From: Peristeroidobacter soli
GTDB taxonomy: Bacteria > Pseudomonadota > Gammaproteobacteria > Steroidobacterales > Steroidobacteraceae
Assembly: GCF_004138485.1 (NCBI RefSeq)
Contig: NZ_RYEV01000007.1
Coordinates: 186,001 to 250,000, forward strand
Direction of reading: 5' to 3'
DNA length: 64,000 nucleotides
Positions 5,123-57,586 of this stretch are shown in pieces (positions within the stretch are counted from its first letter, which is position 1; every line of letters starts with the position of its first letter). The translations under genes and the position numbers were made by a program. The notes beneath the pieces were generated by a model, which did no database searches, was not told the origin of the DNA, and saw only the letters and a list, made by a program, of their open reading frames with translations.

Positions 5123-7171
5123 ATGGCCAACGCGCAACAGGGTCGTTCGTCGGGACACGGCAATACTCAGGACGAGGTCAACTTGGAGATCGACGATTCA
5201 CAAGCCTTGCGGCAGCTGGAAGAAGGCACGTCGCCGCCCATCCTGGTCCTGAGCCGTGACGCCAATCTGGTCGAAACGGTCAAAAAGGCCGCCCCCCGGG
5301 GCGTTTCGGTGGCATTCGCGCCCGACCTGGACCATGTCGCGGAGAAGCTTTCCAACCTGAAGCCAGGCGTGCTGGTCGCGGACACCGCGAGCACCGCCGA
5401 CGTGGCTTCGATGGTGGCGCAGCTGACTCAGCATTTCCCTGAGCTGGTCGTCGTGGTCGCGGGCAAGCGCGAGGACAGCTCCGCGCTGATGCAGCTCACC
5501 GCCGCCGGCCGGATCTTCCGATTCCTGCTCACACCGTTGTCACATGGCCAGACGCGCCTCGCGCTGGAAGCCGCGGTCAAACAGCATCTGGATCTCTCGG
5601 CCGCCGGTCAGCGCCTCAGCACCGCCGGCGCGTCCGGCGAAGGCGGCAGCAAGAATTACGTGATGACCTACGGCGCACTGGCCGCGGGTCTGCTGGTCGT
5701 CATCGGCGGTATCTGGTTCGGCGTCAGCCGTTTCACCGGTGAGCCCGAAGTGCCGCCGGTCGTGAATGTGCCAGTCGCACCGGGGGCGCAGCAGCCGGGC
5801 GGCGTGCCGGAACGTCCGGATCCGGTCAAAGCCGAGCTGGCGTTGGCCAAGGACGCGTTCGATCAGAACAAGTTCATCGAGCCGCAGGGCGAAAGCGCAC
5901 TGGATCTGTATCGAAGCGCGCTGGCGCTGGATCCGACCAGCCAGGCCGCGAAGGACGGCATTCGTTCGGTCGTCGACAAGATTCTGGAACGCGCCGAAGC
6001 CGCGCTGCTCGCCGAACGTTTGGAAGAAGCCATTCGCACGATCGAAACCGCGCGCGATATCGATTCGACTCATCCGCGCCTGGCGTTCCTGGATACGCAG
6101 GTCGCGCGCGAACGTGAACGTTTGAAGCTGTCGCAGGCTCAGGAAGTCGGCAATCGCGTGCGCTCGCTGGTCAACAGCGCGAACGATCGCATGGCCAACG
6201 GCCGCCTGCTGACACCGACCAATGGCAGCGCGAAGGACGCGCTGTTGGAAGCGCGCCGCCTCGATCCGACGGATCCGACGGTGCTGTCCACGATTCGTGA
6301 GTTCAGCGCACAGCTGACCGAGGAAGCTCGCAAGGCACTGGCCAGCGGCAACGTCGAGGCGGCCACTGCATACGTGCAGGGCGCGCGTCAGATGGGTTCC
6401 GCGGGTAGCGCGCTGGCTGCTGTCGAACGCTCGCTTGTCGAAGCCACTCGTACTGCAGGTCCGGGCGCGGGTCCGAACACCGCTGCGGGCTCCACGGCGC
6501 AGTCGGCTAGCGCACGCCGTCCGGCGACCAATGCGCCGGCCGCGGGCGCAGGCCCGAACGTCGACGCCATGGTGGCTGACGTTCGTACACGCCTGACCGA
6601 AGGCAAGCTGATCGATCCGCCGGGCGACAGCGCTCGCGATCTGTTGGCGAATCTGCGGACCACCGCGCCGAATCGTCCGGAAGTGGACGAGCTGTCGCGC
6701 ACACTCTCGCAGCGTCTGCTCGACTCCGGTCGTCAGGCCATGAATGCGAAAGCGTACGAGCGCTCAGCGCAGCTGATCGCCGCGGCCAAGGATGTTGGTC
6801 AGCGCTTCAACGGCGCGGCCATCTCGCAGGCTGAAGCGGATCTCACCGCGGCCCGCGACGCGAACTCTCAGCAGACGAACGTCGTGTCCGCCGCTTCGCT
6901 GAAGCGCGTGCGCATGGTGTCGCCGGCGTATCCGGATGCGGCCCGTAAACGCGGCATCGAAGGCTGGGTGGAACTGGCCTTCACCGTGCAGACCAACGGC
7001 ACGGTCGATCAGGTGGAAGTGCGCAACGCCAGCCCGGCCGATGTGTTCGACGACGCGGCGATCCGCGCCGTGCGCCAGTGGCGCTTCGAGCCGGTCGAAC
7101 GTAACGGCGAGCGCATCGAACAGCGCGCCATGGTGCGTCTGAAGTTCTCGCAGCAGGCGTCGCAGAACTAA
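5123..7171 (+). CDS. TonB C-terminal-domain protein with degenerate N-terminal receiver domain and repeat-rich periplasmic region
   Basis: This 682-residue protein has four parts. Residues about 38-155 look like a response-regulator receiver fold that keeps an Asp at the phosphorylation position (Asp87 in VLVADTAS). It has lost the conserved Lys (FLLTP) and most of the acidic pocket. A single membrane helix spans about 180-201. The region 225-600 contains two related TPR-like segments, seen as repeated PQGESALDL / PPGDSARDL starts. The last 90 residues are a TonB C-terminal domain (SPAYPDAARKRGIEGWVELAF ... QWRFEP). The topology would put the receiver in the cytoplasm and TonB in the periplasm. 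No ExbB/ExbD genes are adjacent. The start has GGAGGGG upstream, and a strong terminator follows. Confidence 0.88.
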   Translation: MANAQQGRSSGHGNTQDEVNLEIDDSQALRQLEEGTSPPILVLSRDANLVETVKKAAPRGVSVAFAPDLDHVAEKLSNLKPGVLVADTASTADVASMVAQLTQHFPELVVVVAGKREDSSALMQLTAAGRIFRFLLTPLSHGQTRLALEAAVKQHLDLSAAGQRLSTAGASGEGGSKNYVMTYGALAAGLLVVIGGIWFGVSRFTGEPEVPPVVNVPVAPGAQQPGGVPERPDPVKAELALAKDAFDQNKFIEPQGESALDLYRSALALDPTSQAAKDGIRSVVDKILERAEAALLAERLEEAIRTIETARDIDSTHPRLAFLDTQVARERERLKLSQAQEVGNRVRSLVNSANDRMANGRLLTPTNGSAKDALLEARRLDPTDPTVLSTIREFSAQLTEEARKALASGNVEAATAYVQGARQMGSAGSALAAVERSLVEATRTAGPGAGPNTAAGSTAQSASARRPATNAPAAGAGPNVDAMVADVRTRLTEGKLIDPPGDSARDLLANLRTTAPNRPEVDELSRTLSQRLLDSGRQAMNAKAYERSAQLIAAAKDVGQRFNGAAISQAEADLTAARDANSQQTNVVSAASLKRVRMVSPAYPDAARKRGIEGWVELAFTVQTNGTVDQVEVRNASPADVFDDAAIRAVRQWRFEPVERNGERIEQRAMVRLKFSQQASQN

Positions 7172-46630: not shown

Positions 46631-47119
46631 ATGTCTTCCGCAATGCCGCCCTCAACTCGACCTCATCTGCTGTTGATCTACGCAGGCCACGCCGGTGGCC
46701 GCACCCACGCCATGGTGGAGTGGGTGAAGCAAGGCGTGGCGGACGCAGGCGAAGACGTCGAGCTGCGCGCGCTATCGGCGCTCGACGCGGGCGTCGACGA
46801 TTTGCTCTGGGCGCATGGATTGCTCATCGGCACGCCCGAGCATTTCGGCTACATGGCGGGCGCCATCAAGGATTTTTTCGACCGCACGTTCTATCCGGTG
46901 CAGGGTCGGGTCGATGCCCTGCCCTATGCGATCTTCGTCAGCGCCGGCAATGACGGCACCGGCGCGGTCACGTCCATCGAACGAATCGCGCTGGGCTATC
47001 GCTGGAAACGATGCGCCGAACCGCTGATCGTCACAGGCGAGCCGGGTGACACGGATCGTCACCGATGCGCCGAGTTGGGTCAGACCCTGGCGGCCGGTCT
47101 CGCGCTCGGGGTGCTGTAA
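46631..47119 (+). CDS. Flavodoxin-like / NADPH-dependent FMN reductase-family protein
   Basis: This 162-residue protein has the flavodoxin fold pattern: LLLIYAGHAGGRTHAMVEWV at the FMN phosphate loop and GTPEHFGYMAGAIKDFFDRTF at the second flavin loop, as in WrbA/IsiB relatives. Members use FMN to transfer electrons or reduce quinones. The partner is unknown. It precedes the GTPase/roadblock operon by about 170 bp on the same strand. Confidence 0.87.
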   Translation: MSSAMPPSTRPHLLLIYAGHAGGRTHAMVEWVKQGVADAGEDVELRALSALDAGVDDLLWAHGLLIGTPEHFGYMAGAIKDFFDRTFYPVQGRVDALPYAIFVSAGNDGTGAVTSIERIALGYRWKRCAEPLIVTGEPGDTDRHRCAELGQTLAAGLALGVL

Positions 47120-47242: not shown

Positions 47243-47279
47243 CTCGCGAAGGACCAGCGAGACCACTCGCTGATTTTTT
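47243..47279 (+). terminator. Conditional terminator (attenuator-like) in the GTPase operon leader
   Basis: CAGCGAG (47255-47261) pairs with CTCGCTG (47266-47272) and is followed by ATTTTTT (47273-47279). GCGAG (47257-47261) can instead pair with CTCGC at 47243-47247, an arm identical to the terminator's own. Only 11 bases separate the U tract from the leader ATG at 47291, so no promoter fits between. Confidence 0.6.
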
Positions 47280-47290
47280 CTCGAGGACCT

Positions 47291-47383
47291 ATGGCTGTCG
47301 CTGCGCCCACGCCCTGGCGGTGTGGATCTCCATGGCATGCGCTGGGACTGGCGTCGATCGACGCCGGTTGCACGCGGCCGTGA
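47291..47383 (+). CDS. Leader ORF of 30 codons overlapping the first operon gene
   Basis: The ATG at 47291 is preceded by GAGGA and opens 30 codons (MAVAAPTPWRCGSPWHA...). Its TGA at 47381-47383 overlaps a GTG at 47380 by four bases. The peptide has two Trp, two Cys and several Ala, with no known family. The overlap suggests coupled translation of the next gene. It may be only a leader. Confidence 0.4.
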   Translation: MAVAAPTPWRCGSPWHALGLASIDAGCTRP

Positions 47384-48447
47384 GCACACGACAGTCTGCA
47401 GCGCCCGGTTCGGGCCCCGAGCGACGGATCGCGCTGATCAAGCCATCCGCTGCCGAAGAACAGGCCGGTCACGCCGTGCAGCTGTTCGATTCAGTGCTGT
47501 GGGTATTCAAGGGCACTACGCGTTCGAGCTGGGTGACCACTCCAGCCGCCGCGGCCGACATCATCGTCGTCCATCACTCCGAGCCCGCTGACATCATCGC
47601 CCGCTGGCGCGATGAGGGTAAGCACATCGTCGTGCTCAGCACCGACGAGAAGCATCACCCCGCCGGCCCACGCACACTCGTCTATCCATTTCCCGCCGTG
47701 AAGGTGCTCAGCATGCTGGAGCACGTGGAAGCGGAGATGGGGAACAACGCGACCGTTGCACCGAGTGCGCCTGTGGCCGCTGCGCCGATCAAGCCGCGCG
47801 TCAGCTCATCCAATGCTGACCCGTGGTCGTTCGTCGAAGCACTGCGCACGTTACGCACCGTCAACAACAGCACGTTGTGGCTGATGTGCAAGGGACCGCA
47901 AGGCCCGTTCCTTTGGTTGCGCGGCGACGTTGGTTGTTACTACTGCGACAGCGCGACCGCCGGCGCAATCCGCGCGGGCACGTTGGACTTGAGCGGTCTG
48001 TCGTTACAAAAAGGCACACCGCCGCCAGGCAATTTACCAGCGCGATCCGGCGCGGAGTTGTTCTGGTTCGCGACGTATCACGCGAGCGCATCGCTCGCCC
48101 CGTGGTTGAACGACAAGACGGTTTATCGATTGATTCGCTGGCCGGATCTCGGGCGCGTGCGAGCACACGATGCAGCCGAGCTGACCACGCAGATTCGCGT
48201 CGTCGCCGCGCTCGCCGCTGAAGCCTCAGCACCCGCCAAGCTTGCGACCCGAGCACAAACAGACATGGACGCAGCGGCACGCACGCTCAACGCACTCGCC
48301 AGCTGCGCGCTGATCGAGACCACACAACCCACTCCAACCGCACCGAAAGTGACGCGCACAGAACGCAGCGCGCCCACGCCGGTCGGCGGCTTGAAACAAT
48401 TCCTGCGCAATATGCGCAAGCATCTGCGACTGGGAGGGACCTCATGA
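47380..48447 (+). CDS. Hypothetical protein, first gene of the GTPase/roadblock operon; pseudo-receiver-like N terminus
   Basis: From GTG 47380 this is a 355-residue protein. Residues about 12-120 show alternating strands and helices (RIALIKPS, DIIVVHHSEP, HIVVLSTDE, LVYPFPAVKVLSMLEHVE) resembling a response-regulator fold. It lacks a clear phospho-Asp and the conserved Lys, so any such domain is degenerate; this is inference. The rest is a second domain (WSFVEALRTLRTVNNSTLWLMCKG...; YRLIRWPDLGRVRA). No family recognised. The ATGA overlap with the GTPase gene shows cotranscription. In-frame starts at 47320 (GTG) and 47332 (ATG) are alternatives. Confidence 0.7.
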   Translation: MSTRQSAAPGSGPERRIALIKPSAAEEQAGHAVQLFDSVLWVFKGTTRSSWVTTPAAAADIIVVHHSEPADIIARWRDEGKHIVVLSTDEKHHPAGPRTLVYPFPAVKVLSMLEHVEAEMGNNATVAPSAPVAAAPIKPRVSSSNADPWSFVEALRTLRTVNNSTLWLMCKGPQGPFLWLRGDVGCYYCDSATAGAIRAGTLDLSGLSLQKGTPPPGNLPARSGAELFWFATYHASASLAPWLNDKTVYRLIRWPDLGRVRAHDAAELTTQIRVVAALAAEASAPAKLATRAQTDMDAAARTLNALASCALIETTQPTPTAPKVTRTERSAPTPVGGLKQFLRNMRKHLRLGGTS

Positions 48448-48998
48448 GCATCGCATCCGAGCTCAAGATCGTGTTCACGGGGCCGATGGGCGCCGGCAAG
48501 ACCACGGCCATCACCGCGGTCAGCGATTTTCCGCCGGTGTCGACGGAGATGCAGAACAACGATCAGCAGAGCTTCGCCAAGGAATCGACCACGGTCGCGC
48601 TCGACCTCGGTCAGATCGGACTGGGCGACGGCACTGTGGTGCGCCTGTACGGCACGCCCGGCCAGGAACGTTTCTCTTTCATGTGGGAGATCGTGGGCCG
48701 CGGCTCGATGGGCGTGATCCTGCTGCTCGATGGCACCAGCCCGACCCTGCTCGCGGATCTGAAGACCTACACCGAAGTGTTTCGACGGATCGCGCCGGAC
48801 CAGCCATTCGTGGTCGGCGTCGGCCGCACTCGCCCGGATGACTACACCCAGATCGACGCCTGCCTGCGCGTGATCGAGTCGCTGCAGTTCTCCGCCCCCG
48901 TTTTCAGCGTCGACGTGCGCAAGCGTGAAGACGTGTTGTTGTTGATCGAAACCCTGCTGGCCACGCTCGAAGTGAGTCAGCCCGAGTTTGCAACATGA
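48444..48998 (+). CDS. Ras-like small GTPase (MglA/Rup type)
   Basis: This 184-residue protein is a small P-loop GTPase of the bacterial Ras-like (MglA/Rup) superfamily. The P-loop is GPMGAGKT (about 13-20), the switch-I Thr lies in ESTTVALDLG and the G3 motif is YGTPGQERF (69-77), with Gln74 at the catalytic position. The usual NKxD G4 is replaced by GRTRPDD, as in some bacterial subgroups. It should switch between GTP and GDP states and bind partner proteins. Overlap of ATGA with the upstream gene and of ATGA with the next gene (48995) indicates tight translational coupling. Confidence 0.92.
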   Translation: MSIASELKIVFTGPMGAGKTTAITAVSDFPPVSTEMQNNDQQSFAKESTTVALDLGQIGLGDGTVVRLYGTPGQERFSFMWEIVGRGSMGVILLLDGTSPTLLADLKTYTEVFRRIAPDQPFVVGVGRTRPDDYTQIDACLRVIESLQFSAPVFSVDVRKREDVLLLIETLLATLEVSQPEFAT

Positions 48999-49399
48999 CC
49001 CTGCCCAACTCACGGTTCGATGCCGACCTGGTGCGCCTCGGCGCCCATCATCTGGAAGCGTTCGCGGCGGCGAATGCGGACGTGCTGCTCGCGGTGCTCA
49101 CTTCGGGCGACGGTTTCGAAGTGGCGTCGTATCCACCGAATCAGACGATGACGCCGAAGATCGCCGCGATGAGCAGCTCCATGCAGGCCTTGTCCGAAGC
49201 GCTGACGCGCGAGGCCGGGCTGGCGAAGAACCGCAATGTGATCATCGAGACCGACAGCGGCACAGTGCTGATCCTCGGTCTGGCGGGCACGCAGCGACTG
49301 TCGCTGGCCATCGTCGCCAAGAGCGGCGAGCTGCTCGGCAAGTTGCTGTGGGCCTCTCGCAATCTCTGCAAGAAGCTGGAAACCAGCCTGCAGAAGTAA
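48995..49399 (+). CDS. Roadblock/LC7-domain protein
   Basis: This 134-residue protein has the roadblock/LC7 pattern seen in MglB, the GTPase-activating partner of MglA: VLLAVLTSGDGFEVASYP, MSSSMQALSEALTREAGL and VIIETDSGTVLILGL. It probably dimerises and modulates the adjacent GTPase. The start codon lies inside the GTPase stop overlap (ATGA). It is the first of three roadblock-like genes. Confidence 0.88.
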   Translation: MTLPNSRFDADLVRLGAHHLEAFAAANADVLLAVLTSGDGFEVASYPPNQTMTPKIAAMSSSMQALSEALTREAGLAKNRNVIIETDSGTVLILGLAGTQRLSLAIVAKSGELLGKLLWASRNLCKKLETSLQK

Positions 49400-49442
49400 G
49401 TCCCGGTACGTGTTTGTCAAATCTGTTGAAGGAGTACTTTCG

Positions 49443-49802
49443 ATGGCTTCCGTCTCTGAATCCTTGAATGGCCTGTTGCGCACCGATGGCGCGCTGTGCT
49501 CGGCGCTGGTGGATGCGAACAGCGGCATGATGCTGGGCAGCGCCGGCACCGGCCTCGATCTCGAGCTCGCCGCCGCCGGTAACACTGAAGTGGTGCGCGC
49601 CAAGATGCGCACGATGAAGAGCCTCGGCCTGACCGACACGATCGAGGACATCCTGATCACGCTGAGCAAGCAGTACCACATCATCCGTCCGGTTGCCGCC
49701 AAGCCCGGCATCTTCATGTACCTGGTGCTCGACAAGAGCCGCGCGAACCTCGCGATGGCGCGTCGTGCGTGCCAGGACGCGGAAAGCTCGCTGACGTTCT
49801 AA
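49443..49802 (+). CDS. Roadblock-like protein (second)
   Basis: From ATG 49443, with AAGGAG 8 bases upstream, this is a 119-residue roadblock-like protein: SALVDANSGMMLGSAGTG, EVVRAKMRTMKSLGL and DILITLSKQYHIIRPV. It resembles the third copy more than the first. It has no DNA-binding or membrane part. It is separated from the first copy by 43 bp and from the third by 76 bp containing a hairpin. Confidence 0.85.
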   Translation: MASVSESLNGLLRTDGALCSALVDANSGMMLGSAGTGLDLELAAAGNTEVVRAKMRTMKSLGLTDTIEDILITLSKQYHIIRPVAAKPGIFMYLVLDKSRANLAMARRACQDAESSLTF

Positions 49803-49812
49803 CTCACCATCG

Positions 49813-49840
49813 CGGGCGGCGGACTCCGGTTCGCCGCCCG
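49813..49840 (+). terminator. Hairpin between the second and third roadblock genes
   Basis: CGGGCGGCG (49813-49821) and CGCCGCCCG (49832-49840) form a 9-bp stem followed by ATTTCATCCTT. The U content is low, so it may cause partial termination and set gene dosage within the operon. Confidence 0.45.
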
Positions 49841-49878
49841 ATTTCATCCTTCGAGACCAAGGGTTCGGGAGCGCATTC

Positions 49879-50253
49879 GTGGCCAGTGAAAGAAGCCTCA
49901 TGGACGCCATCATGAAGATCGAAGCCGACGTGAACGGCGTGATCGCGACGGCGGCGGTGGATCTGGAATCAGGAATGACGCTCGCGGCAAAGTCCAACCG
50001 CGGTGATTTCGATTTGACGGTGGCCAGCGCTTACAACAGCGAGCTGGTGAAACAGAAGCTCAAGATCATGCGCGCGCTGAACCTGAAGGTGCAGCTCGAA
50101 GACATGCTGATCACACTCACGGACCAGTTCCATCTGATCAAGCTGCTGCCGGGCGGGCTGTCGTTCCTGTACCTGGCCGTGGATCGCAACACCACCAACC
50201 TCGCGATCCTGCGCAACTCCGTCAACAAACATTGCAACGGCCTCGAGGCCTGA
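49879..50253 (+). CDS. Roadblock-like protein (third)
   Basis: This 124-residue protein starts at a GTG with GGGAG upstream. It is a roadblock-like domain related to the second copy: TAAVDLESGMTLAAKSN, LVKQKLKIMRALNL, DMLITLTDQFHLIKLL and LYLAVDRNTTNLAI. The paired copies may form a heterodimer. It lies 13 bp before the second GTPase gene. Confidence 0.85.
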   Translation: MASERSLMDAIMKIEADVNGVIATAAVDLESGMTLAAKSNRGDFDLTVASAYNSELVKQKLKIMRALNLKVQLEDMLITLTDQFHLIKLLPGGLSFLYLAVDRNTTNLAILRNSVNKHCNGLEA

Positions 50254-50266
50254 GCAGCGGCGCCGT

Positions 50267-51877
50267 ATGGCGGTGATCGCTCCCAACGACGACTGCGTGG
50301 TGATCCGCGTCGTCTACGACGGCGCTCCCATGGCGGGCAAGACCACCAGCGTCGCGACGCTCGGTCGCGGTCTGGGCGCGGGCGTGTATTCACCGGCGGA
50401 TCTCAACGGCCGCACGTTGTATTTCGATTGGCTCGATTACACCGGCGGACTGTTCGAGGGCCGGCGCATTCGCTGTCAGATCGTCAGCGTGCCGGGACAG
50501 GCAACGCTGGCACCGCGCCGGCGCCGCTTGTTGGAAAGCGCCGATGTCGTCGTGTTCGTCGGCGACAGTTCTCCCTCTGGTTTCGAAGCGGACCGTCGCT
50601 ACCTTGGCGCGCTCCGAGGCGTGCTGAATAGCGTTGGCGGTCCGCCCATCGGCATCGTCCTGCAAGCAAACAAACGCGACCTGACTGATGCGGTGTCGCT
50701 GACACAGATTCGCGGCATGCTCGACGAGCTCGAATTACGCAGCGCCGTCATCGAATCGGTCGCGACGGAAGGCGCGGGCATTCGCGAGACGTTCGTCTTT
50801 GCCGTGCGACTGGCGTTGGATCGGGTGCGCGAGCTCATGCGTACCGGCGCACTCGTCACGGCTCAACCGAAAATCAACAGCGCCGCGGATCTGCTCGAGG
50901 AAATGCAAAGCGCCGAGAGTGGCGCGCTCGACCTGGCGGTCGAGTCCGGCAAGCTCACTCACACCCGCCTGCACGACTTGCAGCAGCAAACATCGCTGGC
51001 GTCGCAAGCGTTCCAAGAAGCGATGCGGGCGAATGTCGATGCGCCGGTGAGCCCAGCAGCGCCACACGCGCCGGGCGCTAAAACGACTTCCGCGGCGGAG
51101 ATGCATGATGAAAGCGCGCGGGGCTCATCTGGATCGGATGACTCGCGCGCTCCCGCCGTGCCCGATGCAAAGGTCGCCAGCGGCATGGTCTGGCCGCCGG
51201 TCGACGGTCGTTTGATCCTGCATGAGCTCGGCTCGAGCCAGACCAGTCTGCGGCTCGATGCGGCAGGCGCCTGGACCGGTGCGATCGACCATCGCTGGTG
51301 GCTGCACTCCGCGGCCGACGCTGTGTTTGACAATATCGACGCCGGCCGCGCCGAGCTGGTCCAGTGGGCCCGTCAGCACGTCGCTGGCAGCGAGCTGCTG
51401 TCGAGACAGCGCTGCATCGTGCTGGCAGCCGACGGCCAGGGCCGTTACCGGCTTTGGCAAATCGTTCGAATCGAAGGCTCGTTGCGGACACAGATGGAAG
51501 AAGCGCTGCTCGGCGACGCCCGCATCATTGCCAATGCATTGATGACGGTCGCGCGCTCTTTCATGACCGCGGCCGAACGCATGCCGGCCGCAATGTGTGA
51601 GCTGCAACTCACTTTGGGCAATGTCGGCGCGTCCGTCACCGGCGCGACCTACCTCGGCTTCATGCCGTTGCCCTCGCGGATGCGACCGGCTCGATCGTGG
51701 TCGATCTCACAGGCCAGCGAACTGTTGCTGTCGGAACTCGCCTTCGCGCGCCCCACCCTTCGTGCGCGTCGCGGCGATCTGCTCGCCGAGCTTTGGAAAG
51801 TCTCCCGTCATGGCGAAGGCCAGCCAGCGCACGAATGGCGTTTGTTGCAACGCCTGGCGGCGCTCGCGAAGGAATGA
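50267..51877 (+). CDS. Second Ras-like GTPase with a large C-terminal domain
   Basis: This 536-residue protein has an N-terminal GTPase domain: P-loop GAPMAGKT (19-26), SVPGQ as G3 and NKRD (LQANKRDL) as an intact G4, so it should bind GTP. A linker (about 200-310), rich in Ala/Ser, leads to a C-terminal region (WPPVDGRLILHELGSSQ...; LWQIVRIEGSLRTQME) of unknown fold. The GTPase resembles the MglA group. It is the last gene of the operon; an inverted repeat and TTTTTT follow. The C-terminal part is probably an effector or partner-binding module. Confidence 0.88.
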   Translation: MAVIAPNDDCVVIRVVYDGAPMAGKTTSVATLGRGLGAGVYSPADLNGRTLYFDWLDYTGGLFEGRRIRCQIVSVPGQATLAPRRRRLLESADVVVFVGDSSPSGFEADRRYLGALRGVLNSVGGPPIGIVLQANKRDLTDAVSLTQIRGMLDELELRSAVIESVATEGAGIRETFVFAVRLALDRVRELMRTGALVTAQPKINSAADLLEEMQSAESGALDLAVESGKLTHTRLHDLQQQTSLASQAFQEAMRANVDAPVSPAAPHAPGAKTTSAAEMHDESARGSSGSDDSRAPAVPDAKVASGMVWPPVDGRLILHELGSSQTSLRLDAAGAWTGAIDHRWWLHSAADAVFDNIDAGRAELVQWARQHVAGSELLSRQRCIVLAADGQGRYRLWQIVRIEGSLRTQMEEALLGDARIIANALMTVARSFMTAAERMPAAMCELQLTLGNVGASVTGATYLGFMPLPSRMRPARSWSISQASELLLSELAFARPTLRARRGDLLAELWKVSRHGEGQPAHEWRLLQRLAALAKE

Positions 51878-51921: not shown

Positions 51922-52044
51922 TGTCGCTTGCTGCGGACACTCCGGCGACAGGTGAGGTTGCCTTCGCTGATTGTCGCCCTCAGTCGCGACAGCAACCTGT
52001 CGATAACAAGGACAAGGACGCTCCTTCAGCGCCCGCGATGTGAA

Positions 52045-52614
52045 ATGGAATACGTGTTGCAACAGTTATGGCTCGTGATTGGCCTGATGGCCTTCATCGT
52101 CGGTGCGATGTACTGGCGACGCCATCACCTGCCCGTAACCGCCACACGCACCCCGGCTCGCCCGCCCGCTCCCATCGTTTACCGCGACTCTCCGACCGTC
52201 CGCGTCGCCGACGCGCAGCGCGTCGACCGCATACGCAAGTTGGCCCGCCTCCGGGCCGGCGAATCTGTCGATATCCTCCCGCACGTCGCCGGGTTGCCGC
52301 CGCGGTTTCGTATCACCTGCAAGAATCTGATCGACGGCAGCGATCTGGAGGCCGCCCACATCGTCGTCGAGCTCAGCGGCGCACAGCTGAGCTGCGGCCC
52401 GCTCGTGCACGAGACTGCATTCAACGAATTCGTCATTCCTCGCGCCACCCGCGATGAACATCGCAGCTCGGTGTTCTACTACTACGAGCGCGGCGACTCG
52501 CTGGAATTCATGCGCATCAAGTTGAAATCCGCCGATCTGAGCAACGGCCAGGTCGAGCTGGACGTCATGCAGGTGCACGGCCACTGGCCGACGCATTTCG
52601 ACGGCAACGACTGA
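52045..52614 (+). CDS. Hypothetical single-pass membrane protein
   Basis: From ATG 52045 this is a 189-residue protein with one N-terminal membrane helix (LWLVIGLMAFIVGAMYW) and a soluble C-terminal domain. Nothing in the family repertoire I know matches. The soluble part is rich in conserved-looking charged and aromatic residues (LSCGPLVHETAFNEFVI, FYYYERGDSLEFMRI). A longer frame to 51928 exists but starts inside the terminator-like region. It follows the GTPase operon by 167 bp and could be a membrane partner; this is inference. Confidence 0.7.
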   Translation: MEYVLQQLWLVIGLMAFIVGAMYWRRHHLPVTATRTPARPPAPIVYRDSPTVRVADAQRVDRIRKLARLRAGESVDILPHVAGLPPRFRITCKNLIDGSDLEAAHIVVELSGAQLSCGPLVHETAFNEFVIPRATRDEHRSSVFYYYERGDSLEFMRIKLKSADLSNGQVELDVMQVHGHWPTHFDGND

Positions 52615-52714: not shown

Positions 52715-55120
52715 TTGCGCCCACTCATATGGATTTTGTCAGCAATGTTGCTGACCGGCTGTGGCGGTGGCGGTGGCGGGAATAGCGAATCTCCAGGCCC
52801 CATCGCAGCGCCGAGCGGTCTCAGTTACCCGTCGCCCCCCGACTTCGAAGCTTTCAGACAAATCACGCCGCTGACCCCGTCGGTGAACGGCACCGTCACC
52901 AGCTATTCGGTGAGCCCGACACTGCCGACCGGACTGACGCTCGATAGCACCACCGGGATACTGTCCGGAACACCCACTGTGGCCGCGACAACCGCCGTCT
53001 ACACAGTCACCGCGGCCAATTCATCCGGCTCGACCACCACTGGCATTTCGGTGACGGTGACTGGTGTCGCGCCACCGTCCATCAGCTACCCGAGCCGGTC
53101 GTACTCACTCGCCATCGGCAGGCCGATCGAGTCGATCTCGCCTCAGCGTACCGGCGGCAACCCGCTCAGCTGGTCCATCAGTCAGCCGTTGCCTGCCGGA
53201 CTGAGCTTCGACAGCACCACCGGCCGCATCACCGGCACTCCCACCGCGACCGCCGCCGCCGCGGTGTATGAAATCACCGCATCGAACCTCGCCGGCTCCG
53301 GCACTTTCGCGCTGACCATCGACGTGAGCGCGAGAGTGATTCTCGAACTGGGGCATGTCGCCGAGATCATTTCGATCCAGCGCGAAGGCAACCGGATCCT
53401 GAGCGTCGACGAGACCGGTCATTGGGTGCTCTGGAACCAGACCGACGCCGAGATCGTCGCCCAAGGCGAGTCCAGCTGCGGCCGCTACTGCGACACCAAG
53501 ACCGTGAAGCTCGCAGGCTCGACGGTGTTATCCAAATTCGACACCCAGCTGCAAGTGACCGACACGACGGACGGGCGGGTGCTCGCGACCATCGATTCAG
53601 GAGACAGTTGGGCAACGCTGGCCTCCGACGGAAGTTACATCGCCGCCGGTACGACAGCGCACGTCCGGGTATGGAGTCGGTCGGGAGATCTGTTACTCAC
53701 CCGACCCGGCGACTACCGCTACGCGCGGCCGTTCGCCGCTCCGACCGAATTGCGCATCGGCGCGGGACCGGCCGGCAACGATCGGGTCGAAAAAATCTCC
53801 GTGAGCACCGGTGCGTCGACGACGGTGCCGCACGCGGGCGCGTTCCATTCGTGGTTCAGCGATGGCAGCCGCTTTTTCAGCAATGTCTCCAATACGGTCT
53901 GGGTCTACGACAACGCCGACGGCCATCAGTTGGATCTCAGAGCGCTTGCATCCACCGAGCAGCTCACCGGTCAGGGCGATTGGTTCTGGACCGCGGACAA
54001 CTCTTCGCCCTATCGAGTCGAGATCTATGAGGTCGGGGCCAGCGCGACGCCGACCGCCAGCTACAGCTTCCCTTACAACTACGAAGCCGTCGCTTCGGCC
54101 GATACCATAGGTATCTTGAACAGCGGCACCGGCCAGATCAGCATCATCGACCTGTCGGGCGCGACACCGGTAAAGGTCGATCACGCCACTTCGCTGGATC
54201 GTCCCAGGGCCTACGGCGCCATCTCCAGCACACAGTGGTTGACCGGCAGCCAATACGGCGTGCTCGCACGCGAAGACTCGATGCCGGGCACACCGGCGTT
54301 TTTCGGCTGGGGCGCGGTGCGGTCGCTCGCCGCGAGCATCCAGCGCATTGTCGTTGCCACCGCCTCCGGAAGAATCGTGTATTTCGACGCGGCAACTCAC
54401 GAGCAGGAAGGCGTCATCGATTTCGCCGCCGACGACGTGCAGCTGTCGGAAGATGGCTCGGTGCTCGGCGCGCAGGGCGATGGCCTGCGCTTCTACTCCT
54501 TGCCCTCCGAGAACGTGCTGCTGAGCCGGCCTGAATCGGCGTCGTTCACCCTCGCAACTTCCGGCGCCGTATTCAGCATGACGCCCTCGACCGCCCAGCC
54601 GACACAAGTCATACGAATGAGCGATGAGGCTGTGCTCTGGACGCGCACGAGCCCGAGCAGCGCCCCACCCCGATTGTCGCCCAGCGGCTCATCGCTCGCC
54701 GAATGGAACGGTGATACCCAGGCAAACAGCGGCACCGACGTTTATGTGGACCTCGGCAGTCAGGCGAATGGCACGCTTCATACGGCGTTATCGGGACGGG
54801 CAGTGGACTGGTTCGACGACAATCGTTTGCTGGTGAGTCAGTCCATCATCACCACGGCCCCCACTCCTCAGTATGTCGGCACTATCATCTACGACCTGTC
54901 GTCAGGTCAGCAGAGCGCGCGCCTGCCATTTCCGGTCATGTCACGATTTCAACCGATGACATCGGAGCGCATTTATTCGCCGTCAGGAAACCTGATCGCT
55001 TCGATGAGCGACGGCTCGACTCTCTGGCAAGGCCCCTATCCGATTTCGAGCCACGGAGGAGTGACGCCGACGCATGTGATATTTGTATGGGACGCGACCG
55101 TACGCGCGGCGCCCTATTGA
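52715..55120 (+). CDS. Lipoprotein with Ig-like He_PIG repeats and a beta-propeller-like region (paralog A)
   Basis: The 801-residue protein starts at a TTG with GGGGAG upstream and has signal MRPLIWILSAMLLTGC, so it is a lipoprotein. A poly-Gly stretch follows the lipobox. Two He_PIG-type Ig modules (for example LPTGLTLDSTTGILSGTPT; LPAGLSFDSTTGRITGTPT) precede a long beta-rich region with recurring GHWVLWN-like strands and DG/NG turns, suggestive of a propeller. Function is unknown. It is followed at 43 bp by a close paralog. Extracellular adhesion or binding is the likely role. Confidence 0.82.
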   Translation: MRPLIWILSAMLLTGCGGGGGGNSESPGPIAAPSGLSYPSPPDFEAFRQITPLTPSVNGTVTSYSVSPTLPTGLTLDSTTGILSGTPTVAATTAVYTVTAANSSGSTTTGISVTVTGVAPPSISYPSRSYSLAIGRPIESISPQRTGGNPLSWSISQPLPAGLSFDSTTGRITGTPTATAAAAVYEITASNLAGSGTFALTIDVSARVILELGHVAEIISIQREGNRILSVDETGHWVLWNQTDAEIVAQGESSCGRYCDTKTVKLAGSTVLSKFDTQLQVTDTTDGRVLATIDSGDSWATLASDGSYIAAGTTAHVRVWSRSGDLLLTRPGDYRYARPFAAPTELRIGAGPAGNDRVEKISVSTGASTTVPHAGAFHSWFSDGSRFFSNVSNTVWVYDNADGHQLDLRALASTEQLTGQGDWFWTADNSSPYRVEIYEVGASATPTASYSFPYNYEAVASADTIGILNSGTGQISIIDLSGATPVKVDHATSLDRPRAYGAISSTQWLTGSQYGVLAREDSMPGTPAFFGWGAVRSLAASIQRIVVATASGRIVYFDAATHEQEGVIDFAADDVQLSEDGSVLGAQGDGLRFYSLPSENVLLSRPESASFTLATSGAVFSMTPSTAQPTQVIRMSDEAVLWTRTSPSSAPPRLSPSGSSLAEWNGDTQANSGTDVYVDLGSQANGTLHTALSGRAVDWFDDNRLLVSQSIITTAPTPQYVGTIIYDLSSGQQSARLPFPVMSRFQPMTSERIYSPSGNLIASMSDGSTLWQGPYPISSHGGVTPTHVIFVWDATVRAAPY

Positions 55121-55162
55121 CGGTTGTTGTTGCACGGAATGGGTTTTCAACGGAGTCTGTAT

Positions 55163-57586
55163 ATGCGATCTCGAATCTGGTCGTCGTTCGCATTATTTCT
55201 ATTGGCCGCATGCGATGGTGGCGGTGGCGGAAGCCCCACCAGTCCGGCGCCCGGCAACCTCAGCTACCCTTCGCCGCAGGTATTCGTCATCTCGGAAGCC
55301 ATCACGGCGGTGACTCCGACAGTAACGGGGACTGTCACCGGCTACTCAATCAGCCCGGCACTGCCCGCGGGACTGGCGATCGATGCCACGACCGGAAGAA
55401 TCTCGGGCACACCAACCGTGCCGACGGCGGCCACGACATACATCGTGACCGCGTCCAACTCCGGCGGCTCGACCACCGCTGGAATTTCAGTGACGGTGAA
55501 CGATGTCGCGCCGGACATCGCATATGAGCGCGCGTCCTATTCCTTTACCACCGGCCTGCCAGCACCCTCGATCACGCCCACGCACGGCCGCGGTACCGCG
55601 ACCTGGTCCATCAACCAACCCTTGCCGGCCGGCCTCACGTTCAGTACCGCCAACGGCTCCATCGGTGGCACGCCTACCGGGATCAGCCCTGCGACGGATT
55701 ACGTGATCACGGCGCAAAATTCAGCGGGCACCGATACTGTCACGCTGTCCATCGCCGTGACCTCGGGCGTTCTGGTCGATCTCGCCCATGCCGACGACAT
55801 CGTCTCGATCTACCGCGGCACCAATCGCTTCGTGACCACCGACACCACCGGCCATTGGGTGCTCTGGAATTCGAGCAACGACACCATCGTGGCGCAAGGC
55901 GATGGCGCCTGTCTCAGGGCGGGCTGCGAAGATCCTGTGATATTCGCCGGCTCGACCATCCTCGAACAAAGCCCCACGCGACTGCGAACCTACGACGCGA
56001 CGGACGGCAGCCTCGTCGCCAGTGTCGACACGGCCAGCGGCTGGGCGGTGCTGGCTTCGGATGGCAGTTACATGGCCGTCGGCACGCAAACGGAAGTCAA
56101 AACGTGGAGCCGATCCGGCACGCTGTTGTTCTCACATGCTGGAGACTACCGCGGCGGCGCGCCCTTCGCGGCGCCCTCGGAGCTGCGTATTGGCAACAGG
56201 GCGACTGGAGCCGATCGCGTGGAAAAAATCACTGTCAGCACTGGCGCCACCACGACCGTGCAGCACATTGGCCAGTTTCATTCCTGGTTCACCGATGGCG
56301 ACCGTTTCCTCACGAATGTATCGAACACGGTCTCGGTCTATGACCTCAATGGCACGCAGCTGGACCTCCGTGTGCTGCCGACCATCGAGAGTCTCACCGG
56401 TCAGGGCAACTGGTTCTGGACCTTCAGCAATCAGCAGCTCAACGTCCATGAGGTCGGCGCCAGCATGACGCCAGCCGCCAGCTACACCTTCACACCTCCC
56501 TTCGCCTCGTTCCAGGCCAAGCCATCGGGGCAGACGATCGGCGTCTTCAACTCCGACCAGGTCAGCATCATCGATCTGTCGGGCGCGACACCGGTCAAAG
56601 TCGATCACCCCATCGCCTCGCGCAGGCCACGCAGCGCCGTCGCGGCGATCTCGACCACGCAGTGGCTCTCCGGGACTCGGATGGGACTGGTGACCAAGGA
56701 GAGCTCGGCTCCGAGCACGCCAACCTATCTCAACTGGGGCCAGGCCCGCTCGATCGCGGCCGGCTCCGAGCGGATTGCGGTTGCCACGGCATCGGGACAC
56801 ATCCTGTATTTCGACGCGGCGACTCAGGAACTGGAAGGCACAGTCGACTTTCCGGCCAAGGAAGTGCAACTTTCCGCCGATGGCGCCGTACTCGGTGCCT
56901 GGACCGACTCCGATGCGGATCTGACGATTCGTTTCATTTCCCTGCCCTCCGAAAGCGTGCTGCTGAACCTGCCGTACGCGGCACCGGGCTATCCACAGCC
57001 GCTGGCATTTTCGCTTGCTGCCTCCGGCACGGTCTTCAGCAGATCGCTCGATACCGGCTCGTCCAACCTCACGAGAGAAGTCCTGCGGGTGAGCGATGGA
57101 ACGGTCCTCTGGTCCGATACCGTCGCTGGCACTTTCGGGACGGCAGCAGAGGTGAGCCTTCGCCTGTCGCCTGGTGGCACCGCCTATGCTGCTGCCACCG
57201 AGGGCCGTACCACGCACTCCGCGACCAATATCTATGTCAACGGCACTCTGCAAACCGCCGTCGCAGGCTGGCCGTTGGGGTGGCTCGATGAGACACGTTT
57301 GCTGGTCATTCCATTCGCGTCGACTTCGGCACCGGGGCCTCAATACCAGGGCACCCTCATCGCGAATACTTCCGGGCAGCGCGGCCCGCTCATTGCTCTT
57401 CCCAATCTGCTCGACTTCCAACTGGTGTCGTCGGACCGGATCTACGCGCGGCCGCAAAATTCGATCTATTCGGTGACCGACGGTGCGTTGGTGTGGCAAA
57501 GCCCCAATGCCGCGTACGGCGGCGGCGTGACTTCTTCGCATGTGATCTTCGCGTTCGGCGCGACAGTTCGCGCGGAGCCTTACTGA
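55163..57586 (+). CDS. Lipoprotein with Ig-like He_PIG repeats and a beta-propeller-like region (paralog B)
   Basis: This 807-residue protein shares its whole architecture with paralog A: a lipobox (FALFLLAAC), poly-Gly, He_PIG modules (LPAGLAIDATTGRISGTPT; LPAGLTFSTANGSIGGTPT) and the same GHWVLWN segment. The two therefore arose by tandem duplication. I chose ATG 55163 because it places the signal peptide at the start; ATG 55139 and TTG 55124 would add residues before it. The gap after paralog A is 42 bp and no terminator is seen, so they are probably cotranscribed. Confidence 0.82.
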   Translation: MRSRIWSSFALFLLAACDGGGGGSPTSPAPGNLSYPSPQVFVISEAITAVTPTVTGTVTGYSISPALPAGLAIDATTGRISGTPTVPTAATTYIVTASNSGGSTTAGISVTVNDVAPDIAYERASYSFTTGLPAPSITPTHGRGTATWSINQPLPAGLTFSTANGSIGGTPTGISPATDYVITAQNSAGTDTVTLSIAVTSGVLVDLAHADDIVSIYRGTNRFVTTDTTGHWVLWNSSNDTIVAQGDGACLRAGCEDPVIFAGSTILEQSPTRLRTYDATDGSLVASVDTASGWAVLASDGSYMAVGTQTEVKTWSRSGTLLFSHAGDYRGGAPFAAPSELRIGNRATGADRVEKITVSTGATTTVQHIGQFHSWFTDGDRFLTNVSNTVSVYDLNGTQLDLRVLPTIESLTGQGNWFWTFSNQQLNVHEVGASMTPAASYTFTPPFASFQAKPSGQTIGVFNSDQVSIIDLSGATPVKVDHPIASRRPRSAVAAISTTQWLSGTRMGLVTKESSAPSTPTYLNWGQARSIAAGSERIAVATASGHILYFDAATQELEGTVDFPAKEVQLSADGAVLGAWTDSDADLTIRFISLPSESVLLNLPYAAPGYPQPLAFSLAASGTVFSRSLDTGSSNLTREVLRVSDGTVLWSDTVAGTFGTAAEVSLRLSPGGTAYAAATEGRTTHSATNIYVNGTLQTAVAGWPLGWLDETRLLVIPFASTSAPGPQYQGTLIANTSGQRGPLIALPNLLDFQLVSSDRIYARPQNSIYSVTDGALVWQSPNAAYGGGVTSSHVIFAFGATVRAEPY

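Follow-up and report, generated by a model that had tools for sequence, protein, structure and literature searches.

MglA Systems and the Peristeroidobacter soli Operon

Group 3 MglA systems are the closest described counterparts of the six-gene operon considered here, which comes from the 9.37 Mb genome of Peristeroidobacter soli. They occur in beta- and gamma-proteobacteria and, as outlined in the 2014 survey of Wuichet and Sogaard-Andersen, combine a receiver/winged-helix-like protein, an MglA with a GTPGQ motif and a deviating G4 motif, and one or two MglB roadblock proteins (PMC4316618). These systems are widespread in both groups, well-studied genera included, and no paper working out their signal path was found. 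In Myxococcus, according to the accounts drawn on here, MglA is the target of MglB dimers, which MglC connects to RomR and whose activity as a GTPase-activating protein (GAP) is raised by RomY (PMC9481161, PMC10329633). The operon lies in a 64,000-nucleotide stretch (contig NZ_RYEV01000007.1, positions 186,001 to 250,000), hereafter the window, and consists of six consecutive plus-strand open reading frames (ORFs) in the order P1-G1-R1-R2-R3-G2, spanning 47380-51877. It is a known kind of system, enlarged, and carries a recurrent domain absent from the libraries searched.

With the Group 3 systems, as that survey presents them, the operon shares the receiver/winged-helix-like protein, an MglA with GTPGQ, a deviating G4 and an Arg in G5, and coupled MglBs. 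Where those systems are given as one MglA with one or two MglBs, the window operon adds a third roadblock and a GTPase of a second class (PMC4316618). The M. xanthus set of MglA, MglB, MglC, RomR, RomX and RomY likewise joins a small GTPase to MglB, to MglC as a further roadblock and to RomR as a partner with a receiver domain, as far as these sources describe it (PMC9481161, PMC10329633); there, however, MglA belongs to Group 1 and mglA is encoded away from its response-regulator partners, whereas in the window G1 is of Group 3, and all the genes lie side by side and include a second GTPase. The actinobacterial conservons, or AGPS, also combine, in one operon, a Ras-like GTPase and a roadblock with a signalling partner and a protein whose domain is unknown, but they are described as carrying a histidine kinase-like protein, of which Pfam found none in the window operon (PMC13343842).

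An original prediction, made from the nucleotide sequence alone, had read the locus as six consecutive genes for a protein with receiver-like features, a Ras-like GTPase with an unusual G4, three roadblock proteins and a 536-residue GTPase-domain protein with an intact NKRD. The genes are present and each of these assignments held on analysis, the roadblocks being recognised by Pfam (R1), by fold (R3) and by homology to R3 (R2). Its suggestion that the combination may be undescribed fared less evenly: P1-G1-R1-R2 is a known Group 3 system, and it is the extension by R3 and G2 that looks new. No description of this enlarged form came up in the open-access literature searched, subscription papers lying largely outside it. 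The prediction had not noticed that the two GTPases seem to differ in MglA class, that G2 ends in a conserved domain, or that G2 also occurs in a genome that looks free of roadblocks. We think it probable, with room for doubt, that the locus is a Group 3 switch extended in one Steroidobacteraceae lineage by G2, a fusion of a Group 1-type MglA to a C-terminal domain (C-domain), and by the third roadblock R3.

The Group 3 Core

G1 carries a P-loop, GTPGQ at 70, and GVGRTRPDD at 125 where NKxD is expected. Over the 37 rows of its alignment G70, P72, G73, Q74, T49 and T50 are invariant and T71 is nearly so. As in Group 3, the GTPase motif called G2 holds a Thr and not an arginine finger, and motif G5 contains an Arg in a DAR-like setting (D157 and R159, invariant in all 37 rows). 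The neighbouring genes agree with this placement, R1 being a coupled MglB with the Asp-Gly pair and P1 an adjacent receiver/winged-helix-like protein, judged from the secondary structure of its AlphaFold2 model and from weak matches. By these sequence characters P1-G1-R1-R2 belongs with the Group 3 MglA systems already described in 2014, and P1 is the “conserved protein of unknown function” of such systems as the survey names it (PMC4316618).

A scan of genome contigs returned 178 relatives of G1, the best 80 loci of which were kept. Together with the window these gave 82 blocks around G1, built from plus-strand matches with gaps below 400 bp, and the P1 proteins across them belong to a single family. 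The commonest block is P1-G1 (39), followed by P1-G1-R1-R2 (17), G1 alone (8), P1-G1-R1 (7) and other classes (7); these shares are not unbiased, because the loci kept are the nearest to the query, and contig edges cut several of them short. Gene order, the conservation of which the original prediction had proposed as a check, is kept in full in three blocks (the window and the relatives L011 and L012) and without R3 in a fourth (L013), all of them close relatives. The closest named relatives by G1 are Steroidobacter metagenome-assembled genomes (MAGs) and Povalibacter uvarum. The flanking genes at 46631-47119 and 51928-52614 were matched in the window and L011 only, and the operon genes remain together in L012 and L013 as well. 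Comparison of all six genes with L011 gives 0.049-0.158 nonsynonymous (dN) and 0.43-1.02 synonymous (dS) substitutions per site, and the genes evolve under purifying selection.

Other Group 3 operons in the survey vary in composition. Those of the Marinobacter type have an ORF between G1 and the roadblocks that forms a cluster in 21 loci, and one copy (L022:3691-5103) has ABC-ATPase and dual-specificity-phosphatase-like domains. The Leucothrix/Cocleimonas type has an ORF of about 217 residues between G1 and R1, clustered in 19 loci, one copy of which (L019:10537-11199) gives a weak roadblock match (E 0.0051). In a Thiotrichales-like family, Group 3 GTPase genes occur as pairs about 1.6-2 kb apart (G472, G722, G810, G811, G819, G824, G842 and G843), which suggests linked duplicate systems.

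The Roadblock Proteins

R1 matches the Pfam family Robl_LC7 at 29.8 bits (cut-off 23), and its D39 and G40 are invariant across 38 alignment rows. R2 and R3 of the window have no Pfam roadblock match, and among the 37 members of their joint family a single one matches Robl_LC7 (E 0.0036). The assignment of R3 comes instead from structure prediction. Its AlphaFold2 model has a predicted local distance difference test (pLDDT) of 93.9 and a predicted TM-score (pTM) of 0.86, and the Foldseek matches are to roadblock chains, MglB and Ragulator among them, at a best E of 9.5e-7 and a probability of 1.00 in the 50 matches listed. Normalised to the query length, the first ten matches, every one to MglB or Ragulator, have TM-scores of 0.73-0.83; the value for MglC is 0.56. 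R3 is, on this model, a roadblock fold, and R2 is a roadblock by homology to it (hhalign 100%), probably the second roadblock of systems with one MglA and two MglBs.

R3 was seen in three genomes only, those of the window, L011 and L012. In the roadblock tree it forms a separate branch with support of 100/100 and a stem of 2.96 changes per site, and it groups loosely with Marinobacter and Acinetobacter roadblocks (90/98, not starred), its exact place being unsure on such long branches. The window R2 groups with rows from Rhodanobacteraceae and Lysobacteraceae. A recent origin of R3 by copying of R2 was considered and rejected, since R3 has its own well-supported branch apart from the window R2. 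Between the window and L012, R3 is 86.1% identical, the highest value among the five proteins compared, P1, G1, R1 and R2 lying at 50.3-76.5%; G2, which an assembly gap splits in L012, gives 73 and 51% for its two pieces.

The Second GTPase and Its C-Terminal Domain

In G2 the P-loop is followed by R49-T50, by VPGQ at 75 and by NKRD at 135. The closest sequence matches of its N-terminal domain in the PDB are Group 1 MglA chains, Thermus thermophilus MglA first (3t12, E 2.3e-28), with M. xanthus MglA at E 3.6e-20 to 3.9e-20 and, as the next-best match beyond MglA, an Arf-like protein at E 2.9e-4. R49 aligns with the Arg of ERTLFF in T. thermophilus MglA, the arginine finger next to Thr. NKRD is present in four of the four operon-encoded G2 proteins, which read SVPGQ in the window, L011 and L012 and TVPGQ in L013, a conservative change of the first letter. 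By sequence, the domain is of the Group 1 MglA type, and the operon thus seems to hold GTPases of two MglA classes, G2 being Group 1-type and G1 Group 3-type. With its 536 residues and second conserved domain, set against single-domain Group 1 MglAs of up to 240 residues, G2 is treated as an MglA-like domain set in a different architecture.

The C-domain is conserved over 26 alignment rows. Searches of Pfam, NCBIfam and the PDB gave stray matches only (best PDB E 0.26; single members E 0.0032-0.0096). A roadblock identity was rejected (hhalign against R1, 0.1%), and the comparison with P1 gave 0.2%. This sets G2 apart from the Rag GTPases, which with Ragulator are likewise small GTPases regulated via several roadblocks, as described in PMC10329633, but which end in a C-terminal roadblock. 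As a seemingly new conserved domain that recurs fused or alone and has no counterpart in the searched libraries, the C-domain is a concrete one to characterise.

Searches with the whole of G2 found it in three of 396 genomes of the order sample and five of 217 of its own family, the genome of the window included in each. The family count was lowered from six because a C-domain-like match in G024 (E 1.8e-4, covering 64 of 511 profile positions) overlaps longer ORFs, which we take to be metabolic enzymes, and was treated as chance. With the C-domain as query, matches were found in four of 369 genomes of the class sample and two of 398 of the phylum sample, again counting its own; the second phylum-sample genome lies outside the class, and the ORF there is truncated at the start of its contig, with no MglA domain seen in it. 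In one Thiotrichales-like family (f47, so labelled because two of its loci are identical to sequences of a Thiotrichales bacterium and of a Dichelobacter nodosus MAG), the C-domain matched in 23 of 42 genomes. Eleven of these have an MglA-like domain in the same ORF, seven are ORFs of 246-286 residues without one, four extend past the fetched stretch and one is at a contig edge. C-domain and G1 occur together in 20 of the 42 genomes, the C-domain alone in 3, G1 alone in 12 and neither in 7, a co-occurrence that is suggestive at most.

The Receiver-Like Protein P1

The AlphaFold2 model of P1 (pLDDT 84.9, pTM 0.57) begins with strands and helices that alternate as in a receiver, followed by a middle domain and by a C-terminus that is helical apart from one short strand. 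The weak Foldseek matches include the response regulators NtrX, HP1043 and PmrA, one winged helix, and many proteins of other kinds. In the window P1, H65 stands in place of the phospho-acceptor Asp and Y102 in place of the conserved Lys. The P1 alignment has 40 rows, 28 of which have both columns filled, and Asp and Lys are found together in 12 of these and in none of the 11 rows from Steroidobacteraceae, Rhodanobacteraceae and Lysobacterales (the window, L011-L016, L027, L031, L032 and L041). Because Asp and Lys are gone, the receiver looks phosphorylation-independent in the branch of the window; those of other branches, going by the retained residues, may be phosphorylatable still. The P1 start in L012 is at 6242, and alignment A1, the P1 model and the identity comparison used the shorter form from 6302.

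The C-terminus of P1 bears on a different output for the system. It weakly resembles the winged helix 2yu3 by fold (probability 0.92, E 0.30) and has weak sequence matches to HVO_A0261_N (E 0.0047) and, in another member, to MarR_2 (E 0.005). The authors of the 2014 survey saw a winged helix there by Phyre2 and proposed gene regulation for Group 3 (PMC4316618). In such a transcriptional switch P1 would bind DNA through the winged helix, the GTPases would gate P1, and the output would be gene expression and not polarity or pili, and the hairpin and leader ORF ahead of the operon also speak for it. Every winged-helix match, however, lies below curated or usual thresholds, no DNA target is known, and in another P1 protein the score goes instead to an O-methyltransferase dimerisation domain (E 0.0014). 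Moreover, winged helices can bind proteins too. We regard a transcriptional output as a tentative alternative, with the odds against it.

Weighing the Proposed Extended Switch

The extension of a Group 3 switch by R3 and G2 is supported on several sides: by the Group 3 motifs of G1 with its P1 and MglB neighbours, by 17 further P1-G1-R1-R2 blocks, by the MglB fold of the R3 model and the conservation of that protein, by the closeness of the G2 N-terminal domain to Group 1 MglA, by the conserved C-domain, and by an operon that stays together despite differing flanks. If the switch works by analogy with Myxococcus, G1 would cycle between its GTP and GDP forms with R1 as its GAP, and R2, with R3 in parallel or in a heteromeric assembly, would serve as docking or co-regulatory roadblocks, much as MglC and RomY aid MglB. 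P1 would be a phosphorylation-independent adaptor or output and a partner comparable to RomR. G2 would act as another switch or as an effector, with the target-binding site in its C-domain. What the analysis shows directly are the domain identities, the state of the motifs, the roadblock fold of the R3 model, and the arrangement and conservation of the genes. Co-transcription, the interactions, the GAP assignments and the cellular role, whether control of type IV pili and polarity or of transcription, are what we infer from the locus; R1-R3 may regulate both GTPases, with P1 as input.

Several findings weigh against this reading. P1, for its part, had no Foldseek match below E 0.001. The profile similarity of R2 to R1 is weak, at 88% with the mixed alignment A3 and 6.6% with the R2 core alone; this sequence evidence hangs on Marinobacter-type rows, and the fold test described above was therefore made. 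MglB is without action on SofG, a Group 1 orphan, according to the survey (PMC4316618). In Povalibacter (L013, G007) G2 follows directly after R2, and no R3 was found in the genome. G400, of the same family and another genus, has a G2 truncated at an assembly gap and no R1, R2/R3 or Pfam roadblock match in its genome; the other five operon genes are not on the 13-kb contig of G2, the rest of the genome not having been searched for G1 and P1. The genes beside this G2 presumably encode a histidine kinase, a response regulator and a DegQ-like protease. The presence of G2 in G400, where the roadblocks have no match, shows that it can occur apart from them. In three Thiotrichales-like loci of 15-18 kb each, the G2-like gene has no Group 3 gene next to it. 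Two of them hold no P1, G1, R1 or R2/R3 homologue besides that gene, the GTPase domain of which itself scores weakly as G1 in one case. The third, G616, has R1 and P1 homologues on the opposite strand of the same contig, P1 at 7.6 kb from the G2-like gene and R1 at least as far; G1 was not one of the Group 3 homologues found in the locus. Together with G400, these loci imply that G2 need not depend on the operon.

The same distribution invites the explanation that P1-G1-R1-R2 is an ordinary Group 3 unit, complete alone as in the 17 other blocks, behind which R3-G2 was inserted as a merely co-transcribed passenger, G2 having a separate job. G400 with its lack of roadblock matches, the Thiotrichales-like loci and the missing R3 in L013 all fit such a history. 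Against it, all four module-bearing genomes among the 14 searched of the genus carry G2 directly after the module, though two flanking genes differ, and no G2 was seen without the module in those 14; a strongly conserved roadblock, R3, also stands between module and G2 in three of four operons. We consider the passenger account possible but on balance doubtful.

As to the cellular role, G1 and R1 might place type IV pili or other polar machines, as MglA and MglB do in Myxococcus. Their homology to that pair points this way, as do the presence of pilT-family genes in the genome and a report on Snodgrassella, the mglA of which is of Group 3, in which mutation of an orphan mglB is tied to colonisation and pilus motility is suggested (PMC11112851). 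The pilT-family genes, however, are present equally in the ten of 14 congeners without an R1 or R2 match and, module or not, in 16 of 16 genomes tested; since all 16 have them, their presence is uninformative for a link to pili and is a further point that the extended switch cannot draw on. A Pfam scan of 19 window ORFs, all from 38843 on, turned up no pilus gene. A pilus or polarity regulator seems rather unlikely on this record.

For the extended Group 3 switch itself, a bolder form can be drawn in which the Group 3 MglA and the Group 1-type MglA-effector fusion make a two-GTPase switch, wired by a heteromeric assembly of three roadblocks in the manner of Rag-Ragulator, with the unphosphorylatable receiver as adaptor and the C-domain as a new effector or partner family working also in trans. 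We hold this to be quite improbable as a whole. The co-encoded second-class GTPase and third roadblock provide a compact natural set for measuring the pairing rules of GTPases and roadblocks.

Gene Layout, Leader Region and Neighbouring Features

The coordinates are collected in Table 1. The three 4-bp overlaps of the original prediction (47380, 48444 and 48995) are real, that at 47380 joining a leader ORF to P1. Its gene set, taken to begin at 47291, does have an ORF starting there, which is the 30-codon leader, P1 itself starting at GTG 47380; the same start lines up in L011. For R2, ATG 49443 is the most likely start. Beyond the overlaps (-4 bp each for leader-P1, P1-G1 and G1-R1), the gaps are 43 bp for R1-R2, 97 bp for R2-R3 (77 with the R3 start at 49879) and 13 bp for R3-G2, a spacing from which the six genes are likely to form one transcript.

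Table 1. Features of the P. soli operon and its leader region (window coordinates)
Feature	Position	Strand	Remarks
Terminator-like hairpin with T-run	47255..47278	+	Just 5' of leader ORF
Leader ORF, 30 codons	47291..47383	+	GAGGA ribosome-binding-like motif; GTGA overlap with P1
P1	47380..48447	+	Inactive-looking receiver domain, variable linker, middle domain, winged-helix-like C-terminus
G1	48444..48998	+	Group 3-type MglA small GTPase (GTPGQ, no NKxD, DVR)
R1	48995..49399	+	MglB-type roadblock with invariant Asp-Gly pair; candidate GAP of G1
R2	49443..49802	+	Divergent roadblock (VDxxSGM)
R3	49900..50253	+	Third roadblock, R2 homologue; start GTG 49879 or ATG 49900
G2	50267..51877	+	536 residues; MglA domain ~1-190, linker, C-terminal domain ~305-536

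A leader ORF with a GAGGA motif stands 5' of P1 in four of the four genomes with the G2-containing operon, the set in which it was looked at among the Group 3 loci. It has 30 codons in the window and L011, 33 in L012 and 23 in L013, and overlaps P1 by 4 bp in three of the four, lying 11 bp apart in L013; the peptides are little alike in sequence. In a shuffle control, 1-2 of 2000 shuffles per genome satisfied the leader-ORF criteria, a figure that is merely indicative because those criteria were set post hoc and the shuffle was a mononucleotide one. L011 keeps the T-run and most of the hairpin stem, with one mismatch. The hairpin, which has no Rfam match, is possibly an attenuator or the terminator of the upstream gene. 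Leader and hairpin together suggest translational coupling, perhaps attenuation.

The spacer between R2 and R3 contains a GC-rich stem-loop of 12 pairs (49813-49840), within an 80-nt segment that folds at -32.4 kcal/mol, a value without shuffle control. Downstream of G2, the ORF at 51928-52614 encodes an unknown protein, matched in L011 only among the surveyed loci, and is a candidate seventh gene. Two large tandem ORFs with He_PIG domains follow (52715-55120 and 55124-57586), a possible duplication, the first of which has a lipoprotein-like start.

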